From positions 1 to 32,943 of IMG/VR virus record IMGVR_UViG_3300032053_011335: a stretch of DNA of 32,943 bases, one strand, 5' to 3'. The translations under genes and the position numbers were made by a program. The notes beneath the pieces were generated by a model that was not told the origin of the DNA, searched no databases, and was given only the letters and a program-made list of their open reading frames with translations. Shown in pieces: positions 3,588 to 31,942 of the stretch; position 1 is the first letter of the stretch, and the number at the start of each line of letters is the position of its first letter. The stretch comes from a virus.

Positions 3588-4298
3588 ATGAACATCGGAC
3601 CGTACCCAACAGGACCCAACGACACGCCAGAGAACGGCATCTACACCGGCGACGCCCTCGCGCTCATCAAGGACATCCCAGACAACAGCGTCCACCTGGT
3701 GCTCGTCGACCTGCCATGGGGCATCGACTACTCCTACACCTCTGGGTACCAAGACGACCCCAAAAGCTACATTCCCTTTCTTGCCGCCATCATCGCCCAG
3801 ATCAACCGCGTGCTCAAGCCCGGCTACTTCACCTTCGCCTACCAGGCCATCAAGCGCCTACGCGACACCTGGCGCTATTTCCCACCGAACAGTCGCCTCT
3901 TCGCCGCCTGTAAAGACTTCGTGCAGATCAAGGGCCTACCCGTCGAGTTCGCGTTCGACCCTGTGGTATTCTGGCAAAAGCCCGGCGCCAAGTTCCCTCT
4001 CCGCGGAATGGTGCGGGACTGGCACATCGCGAAAACTCACCTCACCCACGCCCCCGACCCGCGCCGCCAGCCCAACAAGAGAAACGCCGCCCGCCCCCTG
4101 GAAACAGTGGCGTACATCATCGCCGAAATGACCGCCCCGGGCGACCTCGTGCTCGACCCATCCATCGGCACCGGCACCACCGCCATCGCTGCCCGCGACA
4201 CCGGCCGCCAGTGGCTCGGCTTCGAGATCATGCCCGAAACTGCCGACCTGGCACGCCAATGCGTTAGAGACTATGTCACCCCAGAAGCCAAGCCTTAG
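3588..4298 (+). CDS. DNA methyltransferase, beta class (N6-adenine or N4-cytosine)
   Basis: The 236-residue enzyme would transfer a methyl group from SAM to an exocyclic amino group of DNA bases. The catalytic motif IV, DLPWG, is at residues 41-45, within VHLVLVDLPWGIDYSYT. The SAM-binding motif I, LVLDPSIGTGTTAIAA, is near the C-terminus at about 188-203 and is followed by GFEI. Motif IV before motif I is the beta-class order. No restriction endonuclease gene lies nearby, so it is probably a solitary phage enzyme protecting its DNA or marking it. It sits between terL and the portal, inside the packaging operon, and overlaps the portal start by 26 bp. The target sequence cannot be predicted from here. 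Confidence 0.88.
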   Translation: MNIGPYPTGPNDTPENGIYTGDALALIKDIPDNSVHLVLVDLPWGIDYSYTSGYQDDPKSYIPFLAAIIAQINRVLKPGYFTFAYQAIKRLRDTWRYFPPNSRLFAACKDFVQIKGLPVEFAFDPVVFWQKPGAKFPLRGMVRDWHIAKTHLTHAPDPRRQPNKRNAARPLETVAYIIAEMTAPGDLVLDPSIGTGTTAIAARDTGRQWLGFEIMPETADLARQCVRDYVTPEAKP

Positions 4299-5688: not shown

Positions 5689-8073
5689 ATGGCACTGACA
5701 CATAACTCCAACGTAGCCGACAGCGAGCCCACCTGGTCAGAGGTGGACAAGACCAACCTACCCAACAACGCCTTCGCGGACTCGGGCGGCCGGCGCTACC
5801 CACACCACTGGGTGCAGAACGGCGGTGATCCAGACGACGACGGCCGCTACACCTCCGGCACCATGTACCTGCACCGAGGCGGCCTGAACGCCGCCTGGTC
5901 CGCCGCCCAGGGCGGCAGGTCGGGCGAGGAAGCCAGCACCGAGATCAAAGGCCACCTGACCACCCACCGAGCGGCACTTGGCCTCGACAAGGAAGATACC
6001 GCGCCCGCCCACGTGGCCACCGGCCATTTGCTCCTTCAACCCGCCGACCGCCGTACCCCCTCCGGACGTCGTGAGTACGACTGCGTCTACATGAAGGCCG
6101 GCCGTGTGAAACAGGCTGACCAGAACCTGGCCCCGTGGCTCATTCCCGCCAGGGCCATCCAGGAGGCTGGACACCTCTTCAACTCAGTCGCTTCCTACGT
6201 AGATCACCCTGACCTGTTCGGTTTCGGCTGGCACGACGACCCCAAGATACGCCATCTGGCCGGTGTCACGTTCGACGCACGCTGGTCCGACGAACTGCAG
6301 GCGGCCGTCGGCGGAATCAGGCTGTACGACCAGGACCCCGGCAGCCCAGGCGCCTTCATCGGCGCACTGCTCGATCAGCTTCTATCCGACCAGGCCCAGG
6401 GCCTGGAAGTTCCCAAGATTGGCCTCAGCGCTGCCTTTTTTCAAACCTACCACCTCGACGAGACCGAAGGCGTCCAGATCACCGACGCCATCCGCTACGT
6501 CGAATCCGTTGACTTCGTGTACGACGCCGGCGCCGGCGGCTACGTCCGCGCCGCTCTATCAGCCAGCGGCTGGGGCCAGGAGCCCCGCCGCGTATATCCA
6601 TTAGGAGGTACAATGCCACCCGAACTCACTCACTCCCAGCCGGCACCCGCCGCTGAAACCATCGCGCCGCCGGCACCTATCACCCCGCCCGCACCCGAGC
6701 CCGTCCCGGATGCGCAGCTCCTGCTCCTGCAGGCCGTCCTCAATAACCTGCAGACCCTATCCACCCGCGTAGACGCGCTACAAGCCATTCCTACAGCGCA
6801 AACGCCTGCGGCGCCCTCGGATCCCGTCACACCGGCCATAGAGGCCCGCCTCAACACCCTGCAGGACGCGGTGCAGCAGCTCGCTGCCCTAACCGTGCAG
6901 CAAGAAGCGGCCAACACCATCCAGGCGGCTGGCCAGCCACCGCGCCTCACCGGCGGCCGTACCGGCACCGATGACATCGCCACCGCCTTCGAAGCGCTCC
7001 TCAGAGGCGTACGCCCGCCCCAGGGCATCCGGCCACTCAGTGGCATCAGGGAGATGTACCACCTGCTTTCAGGCGATTTCGAGCTGACTGGCATATTCAA
7101 CCCGGACCGCGTCTACCTGGCCAACGTCACGTCTTCCACCATGGCCTCCATCTGCGCCAACGCGTTGAATAAGCAGGTCGTGAACGAGTTCGCGGCGTAC
7201 CCGAAATGGTGGGAACCCGTCATCACCGTCGTCAACTTCAACAACATGCAGGCCGCCCGCTGGATCACACTCGGCGGAATTGGCCAGCTACCGACAGTCG
7301 CCGAAGGGGCCGCCTACACCGAGCTCACCTGGGACGATGCGTACGAAACAGTGGCCTTCACCAAGAGCGGCGGCTATCTCGGCATCACGATGGAAGCGAT
7401 CGACAAGGACGACACCGGCCGCGTAGAAGCCGCCCCGCGCGCCCTCGCACAGGCAGCCTGGCTCACCCTGGGCAAGGCCATCAGCGACGTCGTCTTCACC
7501 ACCGCCTCCAGCGGCCACACGTGCGTGGACACCGGCCGGCTGTTCAACTCCACCGCCGTCACCTCGACCGGCGGTCACGCCAACCTCGGCGCGACCGCCC
7601 TGTCCCTCACATCCTGGAGAGCAACCACACTCCTCATGATGAAACAGACCGAGATCAATAGCGGTGAGCGCCTGGCTGCACTCACCCGCCCGTACTACAT
7701 CTGGGTACCCATCGACCTGGAGACCACCGCAATCCAGATCCTCGCCACCGAGCACGATCGGCTAAGTGGTGACTACAACGTGAACCCCGACGCCGAGGGA
7801 GAGACCCGCACCGCCCGCCTCGCTGAAGCACGCCGGCGCGTCATCGTCAGCCCGTTCCCGACCGACGCCAGCGACTGGGCCGCGCAGGCCGACCCACGGC
7901 TGTACCCCGGCCTCGGCGTAGGCTACCGCTACGGCGAGACGCCACAGGTCTTCAGCGTCGCGGACCCCCTGGGCGGCCTGATGTTCACCAACGACACCCT
8001 ACCCATCAAGGTCAGGTACGTCACCGCCATCGGTCCAACCGACTGGCGGCCCTGGTACAAGCACGAAGTCTAA
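5689..8073 (+). CDS. Protease-scaffold-major capsid fusion protein
   Basis: This 794-residue protein seems to join parts that are usually separate genes. Residues 1-100 resemble a small phage-associated domain (W-EVDKTNLP, RRYP, LHRGGLNAAW, HLTTHRAALG). Residues about 105-300 look like a prohead protease region (SYVDHPDLFGFGWHDD around His173, then a later IGLSAAFF segment). Residues 305-345 are a Pro/Ala linker, and about 345-425 a helical scaffold-like stretch (LLLLQAVLNNLQTLSTRVDAL). From about 445 it reads as an HK97-type capsid protein, with PVITVVNFNNMQAARWITLG, a central FTKSGGYLGITMEAIDKDD and a terminal PIKVRYVTAIGPTDW. A strong ribosome binding site lies inside the gene. Domain borders are by eye. 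The capsid part is the surest and the protease assignment is tentative. Confidence 0.82.
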   Translation: MALTHNSNVADSEPTWSEVDKTNLPNNAFADSGGRRYPHHWVQNGGDPDDDGRYTSGTMYLHRGGLNAAWSAAQGGRSGEEASTEIKGHLTTHRAALGLDKEDTAPAHVATGHLLLQPADRRTPSGRREYDCVYMKAGRVKQADQNLAPWLIPARAIQEAGHLFNSVASYVDHPDLFGFGWHDDPKIRHLAGVTFDARWSDELQAAVGGIRLYDQDPGSPGAFIGALLDQLLSDQAQGLEVPKIGLSAAFFQTYHLDETEGVQITDAIRYVESVDFVYDAGAGGYVRAALSASGWGQEPRRVYPLGGTMPPELTHSQPAPAAETIAPPAPITPPAPEPVPDAQLLLLQAVLNNLQTLSTRVDALQAIPTAQTPAAPSDPVTPAIEARLNTLQDAVQQLAALTVQQEAANTIQAAGQPPRLTGGRTGTDDIATAFEALLRGVRPPQGIRPLSGIREMYHLLSGDFELTGIFNPDRVYLANVTSSTMASICANALNKQVVNEFAAYPKWWEPVITVVNFNNMQAARWITLGGIGQLPTVAEGAAYTELTWDDAYETVAFTKSGGYLGITMEAIDKDDTGRVEAAPRALAQAAWLTLGKAISDVVFTTASSGHTCVDTGRLFNSTAVTSTGGHANLGATALSLTSWRATTLLMMKQTEINSGERLAALTRPYYIWVPIDLETTAIQILATEHDRLSGDYNVNPDAEGETRTARLAEARRRVIVSPFPTDASDWAAQADPRLYPGLGVGYRYGETPQVFSVADPLGGLMFTNDTLPIKVRYVTAIGPTDWRPWYKHEV
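6603..6615 (+). promoter_or_regulatory. Internal in-frame ribosome binding site and start codon
   Basis: AGGAGGT at 6603-6609 lies three bases before an ATG at 6613 that is in frame with the capsid fusion (Met309, in GGTMPPELTHSQ). It falls exactly at the end of the protease-like region. Initiation here would give a 486-residue scaffold-plus-capsid protein without the protease part. The spacing is slightly short but within the workable range. Confidence 0.6.
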
Positions 8074-20009: not shown

Positions 20010-20028
20010 GTTAGCTTAGATAGCTAAC
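20010..20028. repeat. Inverted repeat overlapping the integrase stop
   Basis: GTTAGCT at 20010-20016 and AGCTAAC at 20022-20028 form a perfect inverted repeat with a 5-nt loop. It spans the integrase stop codon (20024-20026) and lies about 20 bp from the att core, so it may be an integrase or excisionase binding site. Confidence 0.6.
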
Positions 20029-20986
20029 GTTCACCCCCAGGGCGCTTGTGGTCGATCTGCGCCAGGGGCGATGCCCGGCGATGCGCCTCGACCAACTCCG
20101 GCAGTTCAGGGTCCGTGTAAATCCTCGCCGTGGTGGTGACCGACGCGTGCCCGAGAATCTTCTGCAGCATCCGCAGCGGACCGCCCCCGTTGATGAAGTG
20201 GTTCGCAAAGGTATGCCGCAGAAGGTGCCAGCGCAGGTGAGGAAGACCGGCGCGCTTTTTGAGGCGGTGCATCATCGTCTGGATACCGTTCACCGTGAAC
20301 GGTCCTCCACCCGAGGTGATGAACACCTGCTCAACAGACACCGCCGGCCGCAGCACCAACCACGCCGCCAGCGCAGTGACGGTCACCCCGCCAATCGGCA
20401 CATCCCTTTCCTTACTGCCCTTCCCCAGCACGCGCACCGTGGCCCGGTCCAGATCCACACCATCCAGCCGTAGACCCATGATCTCTCCCCGGCGCAAGCC
20501 ACTGTCCACCGCCAGGCAGATCATAGCCAGGTCCCGGGCCGCGTTCCCCCCGCGCTTGATCGCCTCCAGGAGGCGTTCCACCTCCTCCAGGCTCAGACGA
20601 GGAGACTTGCGCTGGGGCACACGCGGGCGACGAACCCGCACCATCGGGCTGACCTCCAGCCCGCCCTCTCGTACAACCCACGTGAAAAACGTGCCAAGTG
20701 ACCTGTAGACCTGGTCCAGGTAGTAAGGCGAGTACGGCTTCCCGTCCCGCCGATGCAGGCCGGCCAGGTAAGCGCGCACCACGTCACCGCCCACCGACTC
20801 CACCCGCACCACCCCCACGCTCGTTGTGAAGGCACCCAGATGGTACGCATAGAGCGCGCGCGTACCGGCAGCCAGGGCGTAACAGTCCGAAAGATAGCGG
20901 TCCACCCACGACGTGAGCACTTCCAACCCCCAAGCCCATGACGCAACAAAAAACGGCCACTCGACACGCACTGAGTAAGAACCCAC
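20024..20986 (-). CDS. int: Tyrosine recombinase (integrase)
   Basis: The 320-residue protein catalyses site-specific recombination between attP and a bacterial tRNA-Gly gene. An N-terminal SAM-like core-binding domain (VLTSWVDRYLSDCYALAAGTRALYAYHLG) precedes the catalytic domain. Catalytic residues are visible: Arg in SGLRRGEIMGL, Lys in LGKGSKERDVP, HLLRH (His-x-x-Arg), LGHASVTTTARIY with the His, and the tyrosine nucleophile in ARIYTDPE. I chose GTG 20986 because GAGG lies five bases upstream. A longer reading to 21247 would start upstream of the likely promoter (21114-21141) and its extra residues look non-coding. It is the only minus-strand gene, and its 3' end faces the att core. Confidence 0.93.
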   Translation of the reverse strand: MGSYSVRVEWPFFVASWAWGLEVLTSWVDRYLSDCYALAAGTRALYAYHLGAFTTSVGVVRVESVGGDVVRAYLAGLHRRDGKPYSPYYLDQVYRSLGTFFTWVVREGGLEVSPMVRVRRPRVPQRKSPRLSLEEVERLLEAIKRGGNAARDLAMICLAVDSGLRRGEIMGLRLDGVDLDRATVRVLGKGSKERDVPIGGVTVTALAAWLVLRPAVSVEQVFITSGGGPFTVNGIQTMMHRLKKRAGLPHLRWHLLRHTFANHFINGGGPLRMLQKILGHASVTTTARIYTDPELPELVEAHRRASPLAQIDHKRPGGER

Positions 20987-21113
20987 CCCTGCCTCAGGCA
21001 GGAGTAAGATCCGACCGAGTGCACGTTGACGGCCGCTGTGACATTGTGGTCCTCGATGTGCTTCGATGATGCGGGGAGGGCTGACGCTGCCCAAGTGACA
21101 GCCCTTCCCAGCA

Positions 21114-21141
21114 ATTATACAACCAGACCAGAAAAGGACAA
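21114..21141 (-). promoter_or_regulatory. Putative integrase promoter
   Basis: On the minus strand TTGTCC (21141-21136) and a perfect TATAAT (21119-21114) are 16 bp apart. Transcription would start near 21107, about 120 nt before the integrase GTG. The sequence overlaps the ribosome binding site region (AAAAGGACAA) of the + strand gene at 21150, so the two directions may interfere. Confidence 0.6.
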
Positions 21142-21149
21142 TAGAACAG

Positions 21150-21281
21150 ATGAGCGAAAACGTGATACGCGCACTTTTCTGCTTCACCGGCCTGTCCATC
21201 GGCGCTGTCATCGGCTGGCTCGTCCGCGTTCTCCTGGCCGAGGCCAACCAGCGCCTCGACCAACATCAGGAGCCGCAATGA
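21150..21281 (+). CDS. Small single-pass membrane protein upstream of queT
   Basis: A 43-residue protein starts at ATG 21150 after AAAAGGACAATAG. One hydrophobic span (ALFCFTGLSIGAVIGWLVRVLLA) is followed by a polar helical tail (EANQRLDQHQEPQ). It overlaps the next start by ATGA at 21278-21281, which couples it to the transporter gene. It may help assemble the transporter or may be unrelated. The coding frame shows the normal codon pattern of the genome. Confidence 0.6.
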   Translation: MSENVIRALFCFTGLSIGAVIGWLVRVLLAEANQRLDQHQEPQ

Positions 21282-21745
21282 AAGTCACGATCAACACCAA
21301 CCAGATCACACGCGCAGCGCTCATAGCCGCAGCATACGCCAGCGCCGTCCTCGCCTTCGCCCCCATCTCCTACGGCATCTTCCAGCTACGCGCCGCCACC
21401 CTGATCAAGTCCCTCGCCATCCTCCGACCCGAGTTCGCCGCAGGATTCGCCATAGGCAACCTCATCGCCAACCAGGCCAGTCCCTTCGGCATCTACGACT
21501 GGGGCATCATGCCCCTGTTCGACCTGGCCGGCGCATACACCGCCTATCGCCTCCGCACCCGTCCATGGCTCGCTGTCCTCACCCAATCTCTGATCATCGC
21601 CGCCGGAGTGGCCACCTTCCCTCTCGGGCTGGGCGCACATCTACCCTGGCTTCTCTCATTCACATCCGTCTTTCTCTCAACCCTGGCACTCATCACCGCC
21701 GGCACCATCGTGCTCGTCCCGGCAGTCAAGGCGGTGCTCAAGTGA
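21278..21745 (+). CDS. queT: QueT-like queuosine-precursor transporter (ECF S component)
   Basis: The 155-residue protein starts at ATG 21278, overlapping the upstream gene. It has the size and about five hydrophobic spans of QueT-family ECF substrate-binding components. Recognisable parts are LAFAPISYGIFQLRAATLIKSLAIL (residues 25-49), PEFAAGFAIGNLIAN, a GIYDWGIMPLFDLAGAYTAYRLR segment, and further spans (VLTQSLIIAAGVATFPLGLG, FTSVFLSTLALITAGTIVL). The family is thought to import queuosine precursors such as preQ0 or preQ1. An S component needs the host EcfA/EcfA'/EcfT module for energy. It overlaps the dpdA-like gene by GTGA, which strongly suggests that it feeds the DNA modification enzyme. 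Confidence 0.82.
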   Translation: MKVTINTNQITRAALIAAAYASAVLAFAPISYGIFQLRAATLIKSLAILRPEFAAGFAIGNLIANQASPFGIYDWGIMPLFDLAGAYTAYRLRTRPWLAVLTQSLIIAAGVATFPLGLGAHLPWLLSFTSVFLSTLALITAGTIVLVPAVKAVLK

Positions 21746-22395
21746 CCATGCTGCTCCTCCCCGGCAACGCCACCCAACTGATACAAGAACTGAACCCAGC
21801 CAATCCCACACACTACGGTTGGCTCCTAACACCACGCAGAACTTTTACAAAGCAATCCACCCACGGCCTCCACTATGCCGTGGACAACGACCGCTACAGC
21901 ATGGGCGACCAGTGGAAACCTGACGTCTTTTTCCGCGCCATCCTCCGCATCCGCGAAGCCCATTCGCTCACAAAGTGCCTGTTCGTCCTTGCCCCAGACA
22001 CACCCTACGATGCCCCCGCCACACTCCGCCAGTTCCAATATTGGGGCCACGTCATCCGCGCCCTGGGCTTCCCCGTCGCACTCGCCGCCCAGGACGGACT
22101 CGAGAACCTTCCAATCCCCTGGAGTCACTTCGACGCACTGTTCATCGGCGGATCCACAGACTGGAAACTCGGGTCCGCCGCGACCGACCTCATCCGCGAA
22201 AGCAAGGAAAGAGGTAAGTGGACCCACGTAGGAAGGGTAAACTCCACCTTCCGCGCCTCGCGCCTCATTGAGCCACCCGACTCAGTGGACGGCACCGCCT
22301 GGGCCAAACACCCAGCCCACTACGCCAAACAGTGGAGGCACTGGATCGAGGCCCGTCAACCCCAATTCACTGCCACTCTATGGAGCCTACAATGA
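21742..22395 (+). CDS. dpdA: DpdA-like 7-deazaguanine DNA transglycosylase
   Basis: The 217-residue protein belongs to the short phage forms of the tRNA-guanine transglycosylase/DpdA superfamily. Typical blocks are LFVLAPDTPYDAPATLRQF, then VIRALGFPVALAAQDGLE, PWSHFDALFIGGSTDWKLG, RGKWTHVGRVNS and PPDSVDGTAWA, consistent with a TIM-barrel base-exchange enzyme. DpdA exchanges guanine in DNA for a 7-deazaguanine such as preQ0, which in studied phages protects against restriction. No precursor synthesis genes (folE, queD, queE, queC) are seen in the window, but the neighbouring queT could supply a salvaged precursor. The start may be GTG 21742, with AAGGCGG seven bases upstream, or ATG 21748. 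The 3' end overlaps the initiator gene by ATGA. Confidence 0.82.
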   Translation: MTMLLLPGNATQLIQELNPANPTHYGWLLTPRRTFTKQSTHGLHYAVDNDRYSMGDQWKPDVFFRAILRIREAHSLTKCLFVLAPDTPYDAPATLRQFQYWGHVIRALGFPVALAAQDGLENLPIPWSHFDALFIGGSTDWKLGSAATDLIRESKERGKWTHVGRVNSTFRASRLIEPPDSVDGTAWAKHPAHYAKQWRHWIEARQPQFTATLWSLQ

Positions 22396-23288
22396 CCCAA
22401 CCCGACCTCTGGCCCAACATGCTCGAGCAACTCAAGCTGCAGATGACCCAGGCAACGTTCGACACCTGGTATACCGATTCCTCCGCAGTCCTATGCGGAA
22501 GCACATTGACCATCACCGTCAAGAACGGCTTCGCCAAGGATTGGCTCGAAAACCGCGCCGTGCCAATCATTAAGCGCACGGCGGCACGCGTCTACGGCAA
22601 AGCCCTCGACGTCGCGTTCACCGTCGAGCACCAACCGACGACACTCCGAGACGAGAGGAAACTCGCAGGCCCTCCCGCAGCAATTGGACCCGGGGCGGCC
22701 ACCAGCAGCCGCCCCGGGGAAGAAGAAGTAGTAGCGGCGGACGACCTCCGCCTTCCTCCATCCGCTCGGTTCGCCATCGAGCTGATCGAGTTTAATCCCC
22801 AAGAAGCCGGCTTCGTCCAGGTATCCAACTACGCACTACAATTCTGGCAACCCCTGGTCGGGCCCACTGCCTTTGCACTCTGGCTCACCCTGAGATCCTT
22901 CCCCGCCGCATGGGCAGAACACGTCAAACCAGACTGGCCAAGCATCCAGACAATGGCCGACATCTGCGCCAGGCACGACCGCCACAAGATCCTCGGCCGT
23001 GCCCCATGGAGCAACCACGCGCGCACAGTCGGCGCCCTCGAGACACTGGAACAACACAGAATCGTGTGGCCCCGCCGCTACGGCACCAATCGCCAGACCT
23101 ACTACGTCTTCAAGGTCCTCAACACCCTCCCACTGCTCACGCCCACCCAGATCGCCACCCTCACGCCCCGCCTCCAGGCACGACATGCCCGCCAACTCGA
23201 GCGCGCCAAGGTGAACTACGACGAATGGCAGCAGTTAACTCTCCCTACGCTCGCCCCTGCCAACGATTTGCTTATGGCGGGTACATAA
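22392..23288 (+). CDS. Replication initiator with DnaA domain I-like N-terminus
   Basis: This encodes 298 residues from ATG 22392. Residues 1-80 match DnaA domain I in layout: LWPNMLEQLKLQMTQATFDTW, then LTITVKNGFAKDWLENR, then a repeat of helix and strand to VAFTVEH. In DnaA that domain recruits the replicative helicase. A linker (80-120) precedes a winged-helix-type region (residues about 120-260) with FALWLTLRSFP, DWPSIQTMADICARHD and GALETLEQHRIVWPRRYG, as in plasmid or phage initiators. It lacks the AAA+ ATPase of DnaA. Four iterons follow, the first inside its last codons (LMAGT-stop). It would bind the iterons and load the host helicase. The DnaA resemblance is by eye. Confidence 0.75.
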   Translation: MTQPDLWPNMLEQLKLQMTQATFDTWYTDSSAVLCGSTLTITVKNGFAKDWLENRAVPIIKRTAARVYGKALDVAFTVEHQPTTLRDERKLAGPPAAIGPGAATSSRPGEEEVVAADDLRLPPSARFAIELIEFNPQEAGFVQVSNYALQFWQPLVGPTAFALWLTLRSFPAAWAEHVKPDWPSIQTMADICARHDRHKILGRAPWSNHARTVGALETLEQHRIVWPRRYGTNRQTYYVFKVLNTLPLLTPTQIATLTPRLQARHARQLERAKVNYDEWQQLTLPTLAPANDLLMAGT

Positions 23289-23802: not shown

Positions 23803-24004
23803 CACCGTCCGGCGAAAGCTGGACGCCATCCGAAATGCCAACGACACAATCCATGAGGAAGCAGACGCCATGCGGCAACTACAAAACGCCAACGCCGTCA
23901 CGCCCACCGAGGTGTACCGCATGGTGGCCAGCATCGAGGGAGCGCTCATCGAGCAGCTGAGGGCACTCGACGCCCTCACCCAGATACTCAAGGAACGACA
24001 ATGA
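23768..24004 (+). CDS. Small helical protein upstream of methyltransferase
   Basis: A 78-residue protein starts at ATG 23768, preceded by AGGAGGCGCGACC. It is helical and charged (MKRTDRLKLTGSTVRRKLDAIRNANDT, then MVASIEGALIEQLRALDALTQILKERQ) with a likely coiled-coil C-terminus. It overlaps both neighbours and shares an ATGA junction with the methyltransferase at 24001. It may be an accessory to that enzyme or a DNA-binding protein. No family is recognised. Confidence 0.65.
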   Translation: MKRTDRLKLTGSTVRRKLDAIRNANDTIHEEADAMRQLQNANAVTPTEVYRMVASIEGALIEQLRALDALTQILKERQ

Positions 24005-25239
24005 TCCTAAACACGCAAATCAACCCGGGCGCCAGCGTACCCGTGAAATACAGAAGGGATCACCACCTCCGCCGCTACCTGGGCTTCACCGAGACCACCT
24101 TCCAGCACCATGCCAAAACTAACCTGCTCTTCCTGGCCCACCTGCTCCACACACACACGGCAGCCGGTCAAACCGTGTTAGACCCAATGGGAGGCAGCGG
24201 CTCCGTCCTGCTGGCCGCACTCACCGGCCACCCCGTGATCAGTGGAGACGTGGAGACCATCTGGTGCGAACTCCAAAGAGACAATGCTTTCCGGATCTGC
24301 GCGGAAAGCCTGTTCTGCGCGCCGGTCCACGTCGCACGCTGGGACGCTGGCCACCTGCCACTGGCCGACAACACCATCCCCGTGATCATCACCTCCCCAC
24401 CGTATTTCGATGCTTTCTCAGACTGGAACCACAGCGCTGGTAGCCAACTCTCCTACAACGTCGGTCCAACCGGCGACTGCTACGGGTTCGACCCAAGGCA
24501 GATCGCCAACGTGCACGTCTACGAGCAATACCTGAAGGTCATGGTCCAGGTCTACCGTGAGTACAAGCGCGTCCTCCGCCCGGGTGGGACTCTCGTTTTG
24601 ATTCTGGGTGACAAGGTCCACAAGTCAAACGTGGTGCCAGTAACGCGCGACAACGAGACCCTCTGCCACGCCAACGGCTTTTCACTCATCGGCCGTGAGC
24701 AGCGCCAGACCATCCCCTCCCGCTACCGCCGCATCAACAGACAACACAACCCAGATTACCCACTCATCGAGACCGAAACCGCGCTCGTGTTCCAAAAGGT
24801 AGACGACCAGTGGCCACCACCCACCCGGCACATCTCTATCATCCAGGCGCCAAGCTCCGATAGTGCACCTGGTAGACAACTCTTCGAAAAGCAACTGTGC
24901 TGGGCAGACCATCACGCCCGCCTCACCCTAATCCTGAACGGTCCAGGTGCAGCCAGACCCTATCACGTTGCCGACTACGTGCTAAACCCCGTGTGGCGTG
25001 ACGTCCCCGCCAACGCACGACGTCGCGCAGAATGGGCTTTCGAGGTGGTCCGTGAGCTCATCAGCACCGGTGACGTCCACGCCGGTGACGTGGTCCACCT
25101 GCACGTGAGCCACGACTACGCTCCCTACCTCGAGCGACGCCTGAAGACCATTGGCGCCGACGTCGAGATCCCGACCGAGCATTTGAACTTCGGCCAGAAG
25201 CTGGCCTGGTTCACCAACGAAACGAAAGGAGACCTATGA
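24001..25239 (+). CDS. DNA methyltransferase (TSPPY motif) with extra C-terminal domain
   Basis: The 412-residue protein has SAM motif I (VLDPMGGSGSVLLAAL) near residue 60 and catalytic motif IV (IITSPPYFDAF) near 130. The order is I before IV. TSPPY is the form typical of N4-cytosine and some N6-adenine enzymes. A conserved LRPGGTLVLILGDKVH segment and the ETALVFQK end of the domain follow, up to about residue 263. Residues about 275-405 form a second domain (ISIIQAPSSDSAPGRQLFEKQLCW, later VVHLHVSHDYAPYLERRLKTIGADVEIP and LNFGQKLAWF) that resembles DUF6884-type domains. No restriction enzyme gene is nearby. Target site and role of the extra domain are unknown. It overlaps genes on both sides by ATGA. 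Confidence 0.87.
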   Translation: MILNTQINPGASVPVKYRRDHHLRRYLGFTETTFQHHAKTNLLFLAHLLHTHTAAGQTVLDPMGGSGSVLLAALTGHPVISGDVETIWCELQRDNAFRICAESLFCAPVHVARWDAGHLPLADNTIPVIITSPPYFDAFSDWNHSAGSQLSYNVGPTGDCYGFDPRQIANVHVYEQYLKVMVQVYREYKRVLRPGGTLVLILGDKVHKSNVVPVTRDNETLCHANGFSLIGREQRQTIPSRYRRINRQHNPDYPLIETETALVFQKVDDQWPPPTRHISIIQAPSSDSAPGRQLFEKQLCWADHHARLTLILNGPGAARPYHVADYVLNPVWRDVPANARRRAEWAFEVVRELISTGDVHAGDVVHLHVSHDYAPYLERRLKTIGADVEIPTEHLNFGQKLAWFTNETKGDL

Positions 25240-25823: not shown

Positions 25824-26954
25824 ATGACCGCTACGAATCAGCAAGAAACCCGCCTCATCGGATGGGACCCCGGCCACGGCGACAGCAAGGCAGCCGAGGT
25901 CCAACTCCGGCCCACCACCCAAGGCACCGACGAACTCCAGATGATCACGTACGCCATCCCGGCCGTCGTCGGAATGGGCAGCACCACATCCACGGGCGCC
26001 CTCAACCTGGCCGGCATCGTCCGCAGCGGACGCGACCGCGCCCGCCCGCACGTCGTCACGCTCGACGGCATCTCCTACCTGGTCGGCGAAGCGGTGGACC
26101 TGTACGCCAGACCCATCGAGCGCATGGACTTCGACAGGTTCGTCCAGGGGCCAGAAACCAAAGCACTCCTGTGGGCTACACTGTGGCCCCTCATCGACGG
26201 CGGCTCCCACCGTGCTGCCATCGCGATCGCTCTGCCGGTCGAAATAATGCTCAACGCAGACCAAGCGCACGCCACCGAGGCCGGCATGCAGGCATGGATG
26301 CTCGGTTCGCACCACTTCACAGTGGACGGGCAACCCGCCGACGTCGAAATCACCGCTGTCCGCGCCCGCATCGCACAGCCAGTGGCCACCTGGTTCGAGT
26401 GGGGGTTAGACATAGCCACCGGCAAGTGGATGCGCGGGAACGAGGCCGCCCAAGCACCCGCCCTGATCCTGGACGAGGGGTTCAACACGTTCGACGTCGT
26501 GGCGATCGAAGGAGCCCGCATCATCAAGCGCCACACCGGCGGGGCCAATCTCGGGATGCGCCGGGCAGCAGAGGCCATCGCCACCACCATCCATAACGCC
26601 TACGGTCTCGAACTCTCCCTGCACCAGGCCGACGCACTCACCCGCATGGTCACAGATCCCACCCGCCCACCGTCTCACCAGAAGGCCCGCATCTTCGTGG
26701 AGGGCAAACCCGTAGACGTCACACCCACGGTACGCCAGGCTGTGCAGGGGCTGGGCAGTGAGGTGGTCCGCTTCGTCCAGGCAGCCGTAGACGACGCCCG
26801 CAAGTTCGCGATCCTATGCACCGGCGGCGGCATGCTCGCCCTGGGTGACCGCATGAAGCGCCAGTGGCCTCACGCCACCATCATGCCAGAGCCCGTAACT
26901 GCGAACGCCAGCGCCCTGGCCAAAATCGCCCGCCGGGCCAACTATTTCAAGTGA
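25824..26954 (+). CDS. Actin-like ParM-type segregation protein
   Basis: The 376-residue protein starts at ATG 25824 after AAAGGAGACCAGATCA. It has the layout of plasmid/phage actin-like proteins (ALP_N/StbA type): phosphate-1 loop IGWDPGHGDSKAAEV (residues 12-26), phosphate-2 segment LILDEGFNTFDVVAI with DEG-N, and the adenosine-site block ILCTGGGMLALGDRMK near the C-terminus. Length is normal for ParM-like filaments. These push or align DNA copies, or position phage DNA in the cell. The downstream palindrome and small gene would fit a site and adaptor. Presence in an integrating phage is unusual. I do not assign a named subfamily. Confidence 0.82.
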   Translation: MTATNQQETRLIGWDPGHGDSKAAEVQLRPTTQGTDELQMITYAIPAVVGMGSTTSTGALNLAGIVRSGRDRARPHVVTLDGISYLVGEAVDLYARPIERMDFDRFVQGPETKALLWATLWPLIDGGSHRAAIAIALPVEIMLNADQAHATEAGMQAWMLGSHHFTVDGQPADVEITAVRARIAQPVATWFEWGLDIATGKWMRGNEAAQAPALILDEGFNTFDVVAIEGARIIKRHTGGANLGMRRAAEAIATTIHNAYGLELSLHQADALTRMVTDPTRPPSHQKARIFVEGKPVDVTPTVRQAVQGLGSEVVRFVQAAVDDARKFAILCTGGGMLALGDRMKRQWPHATIMPEPVTANASALAKIARRANYFK

Positions 26955-27335: not shown

Positions 27336-27390
27336 CGGGCAGGTGGAGCTACCCACACCCGCCCGCCAGAAGTATACAGGAGCTGCCAAA

Positions 27391-28770
27391 ATGAAACAAC
27401 TTACATCAGGTCCACAGACCACCCAAGACCGACGCCAACAACTCGAATTCCAGGCCGACCGCATCGAGACCGTATTCAGCCAGCACAACATCCGGGCCCG
27501 CGTCACCGGCGGGACTGTCACGCCCAGGTGGGTCCACTTCCAGGTCATCCCTGCCATCGGCCAGCGACTCAGCACCATCACCGGCCTGTCCCAGGAGCTG
27601 GCCGCGGCGATGCAAGCAGACAACTGCCGTATCCAGCGTCGGGGAGCAGCAGTCGTCATCGAGATCCCACGCAACGATCCCCAACCCGTCAGGCTATTGC
27701 CCCTCTACGACCAACTCATGCTGCAGGCTCAATCTCTTTCATACCCTGCCAACCGCCTCGCCGCCACCATGAACACCCCAGGTCCCCAACCCATCCCACC
27801 AGCAACTGCCATTCTCGGCCTGGCCGAAGACGGCGCACCGCTCCTACTTCGCCTCCCGTCGCCCGACGTCGCCCACGTCCTCGTAGCCGGCACCACCGGA
27901 TCAGGCAAGACCGTACTGGTGCAGACCATCGCACTCAGCCTCGCAATGACCAATCCGTCCACGGATCTGCGCATGGTCCACATAGACGGCGGCCGCAGCG
28001 CCTTCACCGCCTTCGAAGGCCTCAGACACCTGGCTATGCCCGTCGTCACCGACAACCAGCAAGTACCCGCCATCCTCACCAGCCTCGTCCACGAGCTCGA
28101 CCGGCGCACCGCCGACAACCTCACCACTCCTACCATCGTAGTCATCGTAGACGAGCTGGCCGACCTACTGATGGTCGGCGGCCAGGCCGCCACGTGGGCG
28201 CTCACGCGCCTCACACAGCGCGGGCGAGGCGCCGGCATCCACATCGTCGCCGCCACCCAGAAGCCCACCGCGGCCGTACTGGGACCGCTCGTCAAGGCCA
28301 ACTTCCCGGTGCGGCTGGTCGGGCGCGTCACCAGCATCGAGGACGCACGCACCGCCACAGGCTGGGGCGGGACCGGCGCCGAGCGCCTTCAGGGACACGG
28401 CGACTTCCTGGCCGTGGCAGAGGGCCAGGTCACTCACTTTCAAGCCGCCCACATCACCGGAAGCGAAATCCGCCAGGTGATCAGCAGAATGCCTCACGTC
28501 CACGACCAGGCCGAACCACTGTTTCAGAAGCCAGACACCACACCCATCGAGGTCGCCGCATCGCCCGATCCGGACCAGGTCCTCGCGTCCAAATTACGCG
28601 CTTCTGATCTGTGGGCGAACCGCAAGGACCCCAGCCGCAACGGCTACCGCTGGGGGTTCATCGGTGACGTTTGCAGGGACCTGCTGGGCCAGGAGGCCGA
28701 AGGCAGCTGGTACCGGCGAGCCGCCAGAATCCTCGCCATTGCAGAACAACGAGGAGACGACAATGGATGA
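27391..28770 (+). CDS. FtsK/SpoIIIE-type DNA translocase ATPase
   Basis: This encodes 459 residues from ATG 27391 (ACAGGAGCTGCC upstream). Residues about 20-150 contain a beta-rich FtsK alpha-like region with LPSPDVAHVLVAGTTGSGKT leading into the motor: Walker A GTTGSGKT at 167-174, Walker B IVVIVDELADLL near 250-260, RGRGAGIHIVAATQKP and a RLVGRVTSIEDARTATGWGG sensor segment, as in FtsK/SpoIIIE. There is no membrane domain. Residues about 400-455 are a helical C-terminal part rather than a clear FtsK gamma domain. In plasmids and ICEs such proteins move or couple DNA. Here it lies with the partition genes, so DNA segregation or transfer is plausible. Confidence 0.87.
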   Translation: MKQLTSGPQTTQDRRQQLEFQADRIETVFSQHNIRARVTGGTVTPRWVHFQVIPAIGQRLSTITGLSQELAAAMQADNCRIQRRGAAVVIEIPRNDPQPVRLLPLYDQLMLQAQSLSYPANRLAATMNTPGPQPIPPATAILGLAEDGAPLLLRLPSPDVAHVLVAGTTGSGKTVLVQTIALSLAMTNPSTDLRMVHIDGGRSAFTAFEGLRHLAMPVVTDNQQVPAILTSLVHELDRRTADNLTTPTIVVIVDELADLLMVGGQAATWALTRLTQRGRGAGIHIVAATQKPTAAVLGPLVKANFPVRLVGRVTSIEDARTATGWGGTGAERLQGHGDFLAVAEGQVTHFQAAHITGSEIRQVISRMPHVHDQAEPLFQKPDTTPIEVAASPDPDQVLASKLRASDLWANRKDPSRNGYRWGFIGDVCRDLLGQEAEGSWYRRAARILAIAEQRGDDNG

Positions 28771-30803: not shown

Positions 30804-31028
30804 ATGAGCAAAATCCAAGCCCGCCGAGCCGCCAGAGCAAACCCAGACGGCTACACCACCGTCAGCGAGGCCGCCCGCGCCACCGGTGTCGCGGCCCGCA
30901 CCATCCAGAGATGGGCCATGCAAGGCCGCATCGCCAGCCACCGATCCGGCAAACTGTGGCGAGTCAAGCTCCACGACGTTCAGCAAGTCGCCGCCACTCT
31001 CAAGCCGGGAAGGAAACCGGGGCAATGA
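30804..31028 (+). CDS. HTH_17/excisionase-type DNA-binding protein
   Basis: A 74-residue protein starts at ATG 30804 after AAGGAGACCC. Residues about 18-60 read YTTVSEAARATGVAARTIQRWAMQGRIASHRSGKLWRVKLHDV, a clear excisionase-like helix-turn-helix with a winged end. Such short proteins act as excisionases or small regulators. It overlaps the radical SAM gene by ATGA and is in the operon of the perfect promoter, so autoregulation of that promoter is plausible. Confidence 0.8.
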   Translation: MSKIQARRAARANPDGYTTVSEAARATGVAARTIQRWAMQGRIASHRSGKLWRVKLHDVQQVAATLKPGRKPGQ

Positions 31029-31942
31029 CCAACGCCAGCCCGCACACCACCTGGAGAAACTCCCTCCTGCACTGGACACGAGGCGGGGTTGCCTACCTAA
31101 GTGTGATCTTCACCTGGCACCTGCCCGATGCACTCCGATGGGCCGCGTTCTACCGCTCACAGGGTTTACACGTGCGAGCGGGAGGACCCGCGGTCAGCCT
31201 CAATCCTGACTTCCTGGCCGGCACCGCGCACGAAATTGGCGGCCACCTGCCCACCCTCCACCGCCACAACCCCGACGCCACGTTCACCTCGCGCGGATGC
31301 CCGAACAAGTGCAAGTTCTGCGCCGTACCCAAGATCGAGGGACCGCTGGTCGAGCTGGCCGACTGGGAACCCAGGCCCATCGTGTGCGACAACAACGTCA
31401 CCGCCTGCTCCAAGGCCCACTTCGACGACGTCGTGGACCGCCTCAAGCACGTGCCCGGGGTGGATTTCAACCAAGGCCTGGACGCCAGGCTGCTGACCGA
31501 CCACCACGCCCAGCGCCTGGCCGAGCTCGACATCTTCAAAGTCCGCCTGGCCTGGGACCACACCCGAGACGAGCAACACGTCTACGACGCCATCATGCGC
31601 CTGCGGCGCGCCGGAATTGGCAAGAAGGCCATCGGCGTGTACGTCCTCGTCGGCTTCGACGACACGCCCGCAGATGCCCGCTACCGCTGCGAGACGCTCA
31701 AGCGAAAGTGGGGCATAGATCCACGCCCCATGCGGTTTCAGCCACTCGACACCATGCAGAAGAACAGCTACGTCCACCCGGCATGGACCGACGAAGAACT
31801 CCGTCGCCTCGTCCGTTACTGGTGGCACACCAGATTCGTCGGTGGCATCCCATACGACGACTACCGGCCCTACCACCCACGCCACGGCCACGCCAAGCAG
31901 GTCCAACACGCCACCAACCTGCCATTGGAGGTGCCAGGATGA
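31025..31942 (+). CDS. Radical SAM enzyme
   Basis: This encodes 305 residues from ATG 31025. The 4Fe-4S cluster motif is CPNKCKFC (Cys92, Cys96, Cys99; C-x3-C-x2-C), after FTSRG and before AVPKIEG. Further conserved-looking parts are VCDNNVTACSKAHFDDVVDRL, DFNQGLDARLL and VRLAWDHTRDEQHV, then a VYVLVGFDDTPADARYRC segment, typical of a radical SAM TIM barrel. The N-terminal ~85 residues look like a short Rossmann-type unit (SLNPDFLAGTAHEIGGHLP). The substrate is unknown. Phage examples have been linked to nucleotide or tRNA modification, but nothing here proves that. It is flanked by two HTH genes in one operon. Confidence 0.85.
   Translation: MTNASPHTTWRNSLLHWTRGGVAYLSVIFTWHLPDALRWAAFYRSQGLHVRAGGPAVSLNPDFLAGTAHEIGGHLPTLHRHNPDATFTSRGCPNKCKFCAVPKIEGPLVELADWEPRPIVCDNNVTACSKAHFDDVVDRLKHVPGVDFNQGLDARLLTDHHAQRLAELDIFKVRLAWDHTRDEQHVYDAIMRLRRAGIGKKAIGVYVLVGFDDTPADARYRCETLKRKWGIDPRPMRFQPLDTMQKNSYVHPAWTDEELRRLVRYWWHTRFVGGIPYDDYRPYHPRHGHAKQVQHATNLPLEVPG

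Follow-up and report, generated by a model that had tools for sequence, protein, structure and literature searches.

A viral queT-dpdA gene pair as a candidate unit for scavenging and inserting 7-deazaguanine bases

How does a phage that carries a DpdA-type enzyme, and no genes for making a 7-deazaguanine, come by the base to be inserted? Hutinet et al. 2019 described 76 DpdA-only phages without a known base supply and proposed host synthesis or uptake; YhhQ was noted in some phages, uncorrelated with any phage group (PMC6884629). The question is raised by a locus in the IMG/VR virus record IMGVR_UViG_3300032053_011335, which we analysed over its full 32,943 nt (the window), and in which a queT gene overlaps a gene for a DpdA-like transglycosylase. 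The initial annotation had read the two genes as a minimal import-and-insert unit. On the evidence below, we put the probability that the queT-dpdA pair is a two-gene scavenging unit for DNA hypermodification at roughly three in four.

Four open reading frames on the + strand are chained by 4-base overlaps. The first encodes, in translation, 43 aa with one hydrophobic stretch (21150..21281) and shares ATGA with queT (21278..21745, 155 aa; PF06177, phrog_27044), which codes for the S component of an ECF transporter for queuosine precursors. The overlap between queT and the gene for the small DpdA-like 7-deazaguanine transglycosylase (21742..22395, 217 aa; phrog_15826, E 1.3e-44) is GTGA, the GTG start of the latter at 21742 lying inside queT, which ends at 21745. 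A further ATGA overlap leads into a replication initiator with a DnaA N-terminal domain (22392..23288; PF11638, DnaA_N, E 6.4e-10; phrog_26369, 'replication initiation protein', E 6e-9). The observation of the pair as a whole is hereby confirmed, including the GTGA overlap and the initiator as the next gene, as stated in the initial annotation. The initiator belongs to the same gene run and stands outside the modification step; the order of dpdA-like gene and initiator is also kept in a related viral contig, L221, discussed below. We had considered the 43-aa ORF as a possible leader gene or member of the unit and dropped it, L221 being without it: there, the region matching the start of the ORF runs directly into queT.

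The annotation of the first protein as a QueT-like S component is borne out by a match to PF06177 at 85.9 bits (cut-off 33.7; E 4.2e-24) over profile positions 1-138 of 141. Like bacterial QueT/QrtT S components it is full-length for this profile and carries the motifs APISYG..Q.R and IAN..SP.G..D; unlike them, it is phage-encoded and lies beside an enzyme of the DNA-modification type, and no ECF motor genes were recognised among the window ORFs scanned. Six helices are predicted in a single-sequence model of low confidence (pLDDT 57.5). The alanine-rich helix at residues 13-23 contains the small-xxxA pattern four times (A13-A17, A14-A18, A17-A21 and A19-A23), a motif that in helix 1 of group II S components serves docking on EcfT (PMC5037267); group II S components exchange on one common motor (PMC7755397, PMC5037267). 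At the Q-x-R motif (window 21383-21412, QueT residues 36-45), two clostridial QueTs read R-x-S-E, and the three viral ones R-A-A-T (window), R-A-A-T and R-I-A-N. It is speculation, based on these five sequences, that without this acid neutral preQ0 might be preferred to cationic preQ1. A tblastn search of QueT against phage records gave no match. QueT matches in Chloroflexota are larger proteins, one of them adjoining ECF motor genes, and were rejected as a close source of the phage queT. A preQ1 riboswitch or other Rfam match of note was not found.

The second protein had been called a DpdA-like transglycosylase, and several lines of evidence uphold this name. It has no match in Pfam, belongs only to phrog_15826, whose function entry in PHROGs reads unknown, and has relatives in Arthrobacter and Mycobacterium phages annotated as 'DpdA-like tRNA-guanine transglycosylase'; sequence searches of solved structures returned chance matches or none. 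An AF2 model built from an alignment of 54 viral sequences has a mean pLDDT of 91.5 and a pTM of 0.88. Foldseek alone ranked generic TIM barrels first, these being common folds, and tRNA-guanine transglycosylases (TGTs) emerged on re-alignment with VIA-align, where they fill 49 of the 50 top rows (Z 14.2-14.7, rmsd ~3 over ~199 residues), tied in this top 50 by pyruvate kinase. Profile alignment with hhalign relates the enzyme to three phage DpdA1 proteins (E 1.6e-5, probability 79) and sets its VDND on the DpdA1 motif DSGAF, the counterpart of DSGGF in TGTs. The alignment with bacterial TGTs is non-significant (E 0.25) and pairs QDG with QGG, IGG with IGG and SVDGT with MFDCV, the last of which we take to be the TGT nucleophile site; Q117, the GG and D183 thus fall on TGT motifs in an alignment that is itself non-significant. 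Throughout the 54 viral sequences D48, D86, Q117, G136-G137 and D183 are invariant, matching the TGT catalytic pattern of Asp, Asp, Gln, Gly-Gly and an Asp nucleophile. We can confidently describe the enzyme, as modelled, as a predicted TGT-like barrel with TGT-like catalytic positions.

The initial annotation missed that this small family is distinct from the characterised DpdA1 and DpdA2. With DpdA1 of the phages 9g, CAjan and the Seurat-like phages (phrog_887), the window enzyme shares the TGT-like character and a distant profile similarity; those proteins, however, measure ~300 aa and are accompanied by FolE, QueD, QueE and QueC genes, whereas the window enzyme has 217 aa, lies outside phrog_887 and comes without synthesis genes. 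Its alignment with DpdA2 of the Vibrio phage nt-1 covers 17 columns (hhalign, E 0.44), which places it outside that subfamily, too. Judged from these comparisons with DpdA1 and DpdA2, the enzyme is best named a member of a small DpdA-like family, set apart from both. Relatives of the small enzyme are also encoded by 164 plasmid records (Pseudomonas, Deinococcus, Nocardia, Streptomyces and others), mostly as 'hypothetical', and in L081 (728-8581) the domain sits within an apparently very long open frame, either a fusion or an artefact.

Where, then, would the base come from? Searching the window by tblastn with phage proteins, we found no QueC, QueD, QueE, FolE, DpdA1 or QPTR (best E 0.077), and the same queries recovered their targets in control phages; the reported absence of folE, queD, queE and queC therefore stands. 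As to the host, relatives of the window terminase occur in 118 of 400 Chloroflexota genomes versus 0 of 199 Bacillota (among reference phages there is a single distant relative), and these matches point to a putative host in the Chloroflexota, known to phylum only. A check of the host side for ECF and queuosine genes, as proposed in the initial annotation, yielded an EcfT-like gene (PF02361) in 41 of 43 candidate Chloroflexota host genomes and a strong QueC in 12 of the 43. A phage that supplies its own S component would suit such a host, in which an ECF motor is available and preQ0 synthesis often missing; the presence of EcfT is no proof that it would accept the phage QueT. The window, a metagenomic record, has no end repeats and may be incomplete, although another contig (L172), in which window 30.3-30.5 kb is joined to window base 49, suggests that little is missing. 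The window also encodes a ParM-like partition protein (25824-26954), an FtsK/SpoIIIE-like ATPase (27343-28770) and an integrase (20024-21247, - strand), a set that hints at a temperate phage with possible plasmid-like persistence.

Independent support for uptake comes from relatives of the enzyme that are paired with a different transporter. Besides QueT, the other known family of queuosine-precursor importers is QPTR/YhhQ (PF02592), which needs no host ATP motor. In IMG/VR, 394 stretches encode relatives of the enzyme, of which 80 loci were kept and 50 records searched whole. PF02592 is present in 24 of these 50 viral records, and all 24 genes share the strand of the enzyme gene and are at most 470 bp away from it, either up- or downstream. 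At the other loci and in other phages, every one of the 27 adjacent polytopic proteins scanned is PF02592, QueT occurring in the window only; neither the 50 viral records nor 50 bacterial genomes carrying the enzyme contained a QueT. Such pairs are known by name from Mycobacterium Fishburnevirus, Rhodococcus ReqiPine5 and Arthrobacter Aoka phages, where an enzyme of the same phrog_15826 family stands beside a queuosine-precursor transporter, often overlapping it; unlike in the window, this transporter is a QPTR, unrelated to the ECF S component. In bacterial genomes, PF02592 lies near the enzyme gene at 23 of 80 loci. A strong QueC was found in 5 of the 50 viral records, none of which has a PF02592 transporter, a mutual exclusion that is borderline (two-sided p 0.05). 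On a tree of 133 enzymes, well-supported branches carry at least six changes in the link to QPTR, and the window enzyme groups with the QPTR-paired copy of L011 (SH-aLRT 92, long branches). The same idea of import and insertion thus draws support from 24 adjacent and co-directional PF02592 genes and, as described below, from a QueT linked to a DpdA1-type enzyme.

Two other functions might be assigned to the pair. One is service to tRNA: QueT would raise the precursor level and the small transglycosylase or the host TGT would modify host tRNA, tuning translation in infection. In its usual role QueT provides for queuosine in tRNA (PMC11130926), and among solved folds the closest is that of TGT. 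The enzyme, however, has a single cysteine, which makes the zinc site of tRNA TGTs impossible; its profile is nearer to phage DpdA1 than to TGT (E 1.6e-5 versus 0.25), no TGT gene is present in 15 of 18 sampled genomes with QPTR-paired copies, and the enzyme gene adjoins a replication gene, all of which renders a tRNA function unlikely. The other is that the small family edits or removes 7-deazaguanines, or inserts them at a second motif beside DpdA1, while the transporter supplies something else. This would accommodate the three reference phages Sonali, phiG7 and R29Z, in which a small DpdA-like protein occurs alongside DpdA1 and preQ0 synthesis genes, a coexistence of which the simple scavenging model gives no account and by which the role of the small enzyme could differ. 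About half of the records, in contrast, pair the enzyme with an importer and lack QueC, whereas a remover needs no importer, and the residues that form the exchange-reaction pattern do not vary; we regard this alternative as improbable as well. Two-enzyme loci were located at 5815-6432 and 8802-9692 in L004, 5875-6521 in L007 and 4767-5351 in L009, and the small DpdA-like gene of phiG7 is split into two ORFs.

Returning to the scavenging unit, we looked for further QueT pairs in viral contigs. Single-protein queries (P0001, P0002, P0003) gave nothing and alignments were needed; a search with a QueT alignment led to two further contigs (L221/L225 and L222). L221/L225 shows ~70-75% nucleotide identity over much of the window, and in L221 the gene order of the window is kept, from queT (62% aa identity) through the GTGA overlap and the enzyme to the initiator; no preQ0 synthesis genes were seen in the 20.5 kb of L221/L225. 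Between the window and L221, dN and dS are 0.28 and 0.77 for queT and 0.29 and 1.14 for dpdA, i.e. dN is well below dS and both genes of the pair are under purifying selection. As pair and overlap recur at ~70% nucleotide identity under such constraint, the arrangement is not due to chance. In L222, an unrelated contig, a phrog_887 (DpdA1) gene precedes a PF06177 gene by 53 bp, and in phage phiFN37 a DpdA1-type gene is found two genes before a QPTR. Each enzyme type is thus seen with each transporter type, from which we conclude that transporters and inserting enzymes are combined interchangeably; judged from gene neighbourhoods, such combinations would be difficult to account for if the transporter did not supply the enzyme. 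That QueT and the transglycosylase are unrelated cargo genes overlapping by accident is highly improbable: phage ORFs often overlap, as the neighbouring rep gene does here, but independent phages show the pairing again with different partners, and purifying selection acts on the pair at ~70% nucleotide identity. In the literature searched, we found no phage QueT-DpdA pair.

In the mechanism that we infer, the phage-made QueT would enter the host membrane during infection or lysogeny, bind an external 7-deazaguanine precursor of queuosine (preQ0 or preQ1) and dock on the common ECF motor of the host (EcfA/A'/T) for uptake. The co-translated DpdA-like enzyme would then replace guanine in the phage DNA with the imported base, through a mechanism of the TGT type in which an aspartate nucleophile, probably D183, would form a covalent DNA intermediate and the free base would take the place of guanine; the modified genome would be shielded from host nucleases. 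A dpdA gene is, however, no guarantee of DNA modification, as follows from Mycobacterium phage Orion, which has DpdA, no synthesis genes and no detectable 7-deazaguanine in its DNA (PMC6884629).

A later step on the inserted base is possible. The initial annotation overlooked a gene 1.6 kb downstream of the enzyme (24001..25239, + strand), which encodes a DNA-methyltransferase-like protein (PF01555, E 4.4e-12) with a C-terminal DUF6884 (PF21818, 34.2 bits versus a cut-off of 30, at residues 338-405 and covering half of the profile), and which shows 64% identity over 415 aa in L225. To dpdC, the maker of dADG in bacterial islands, this same Pfam domain has been assigned (PMC11888242), so that the window protein could act on the base after insertion, e.g. 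to give dADG; we offer this as a lead. No DUF6884 was found near other copies of the small enzyme. The window resembles the bacterial dpd islands (dpdA-C plus dpdD-K), which put 7-deazaguanine into DNA and some of which carry YhhQ (PMC11888242), in having the dpdC domain; it differs from them in that no dpdB or restriction genes were recognised among the window ORFs scanned and in that its enzyme is of a different, smaller subfamily. Further genes of the window code for a second N6/N4 DNA methyltransferase (3588-4298) and a radical SAM protein (30911-31942; phrog_9298) with its best match in Marinitoga camini virus 1, in a region also present in L225.

Going beyond this locus, we lean slightly towards a broader reading, by which phages would encode a modular scavenge-and-insert DNA disguise: either DpdA-type enzyme may be combined with either of two unrelated importers, the QueT form would dock a viral S component on the host ECF motor, and here the MTase-DUF6884 protein may convert the base further (e.g. 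to dADG). With one DpdA-like family so strictly paired with precursor importers, uptake as an answer to the supply of DpdA-only phages can be put to a direct test. To take over a host nutrient motor by means of a viral ECF S component would be unusual, one small gene replacing a four-enzyme pathway. A virus may in this way mask its genome with bases that it scavenges instead of making them itself, which predicts that the protection of phage DNA can depend on nutrients released by neighbouring cells.
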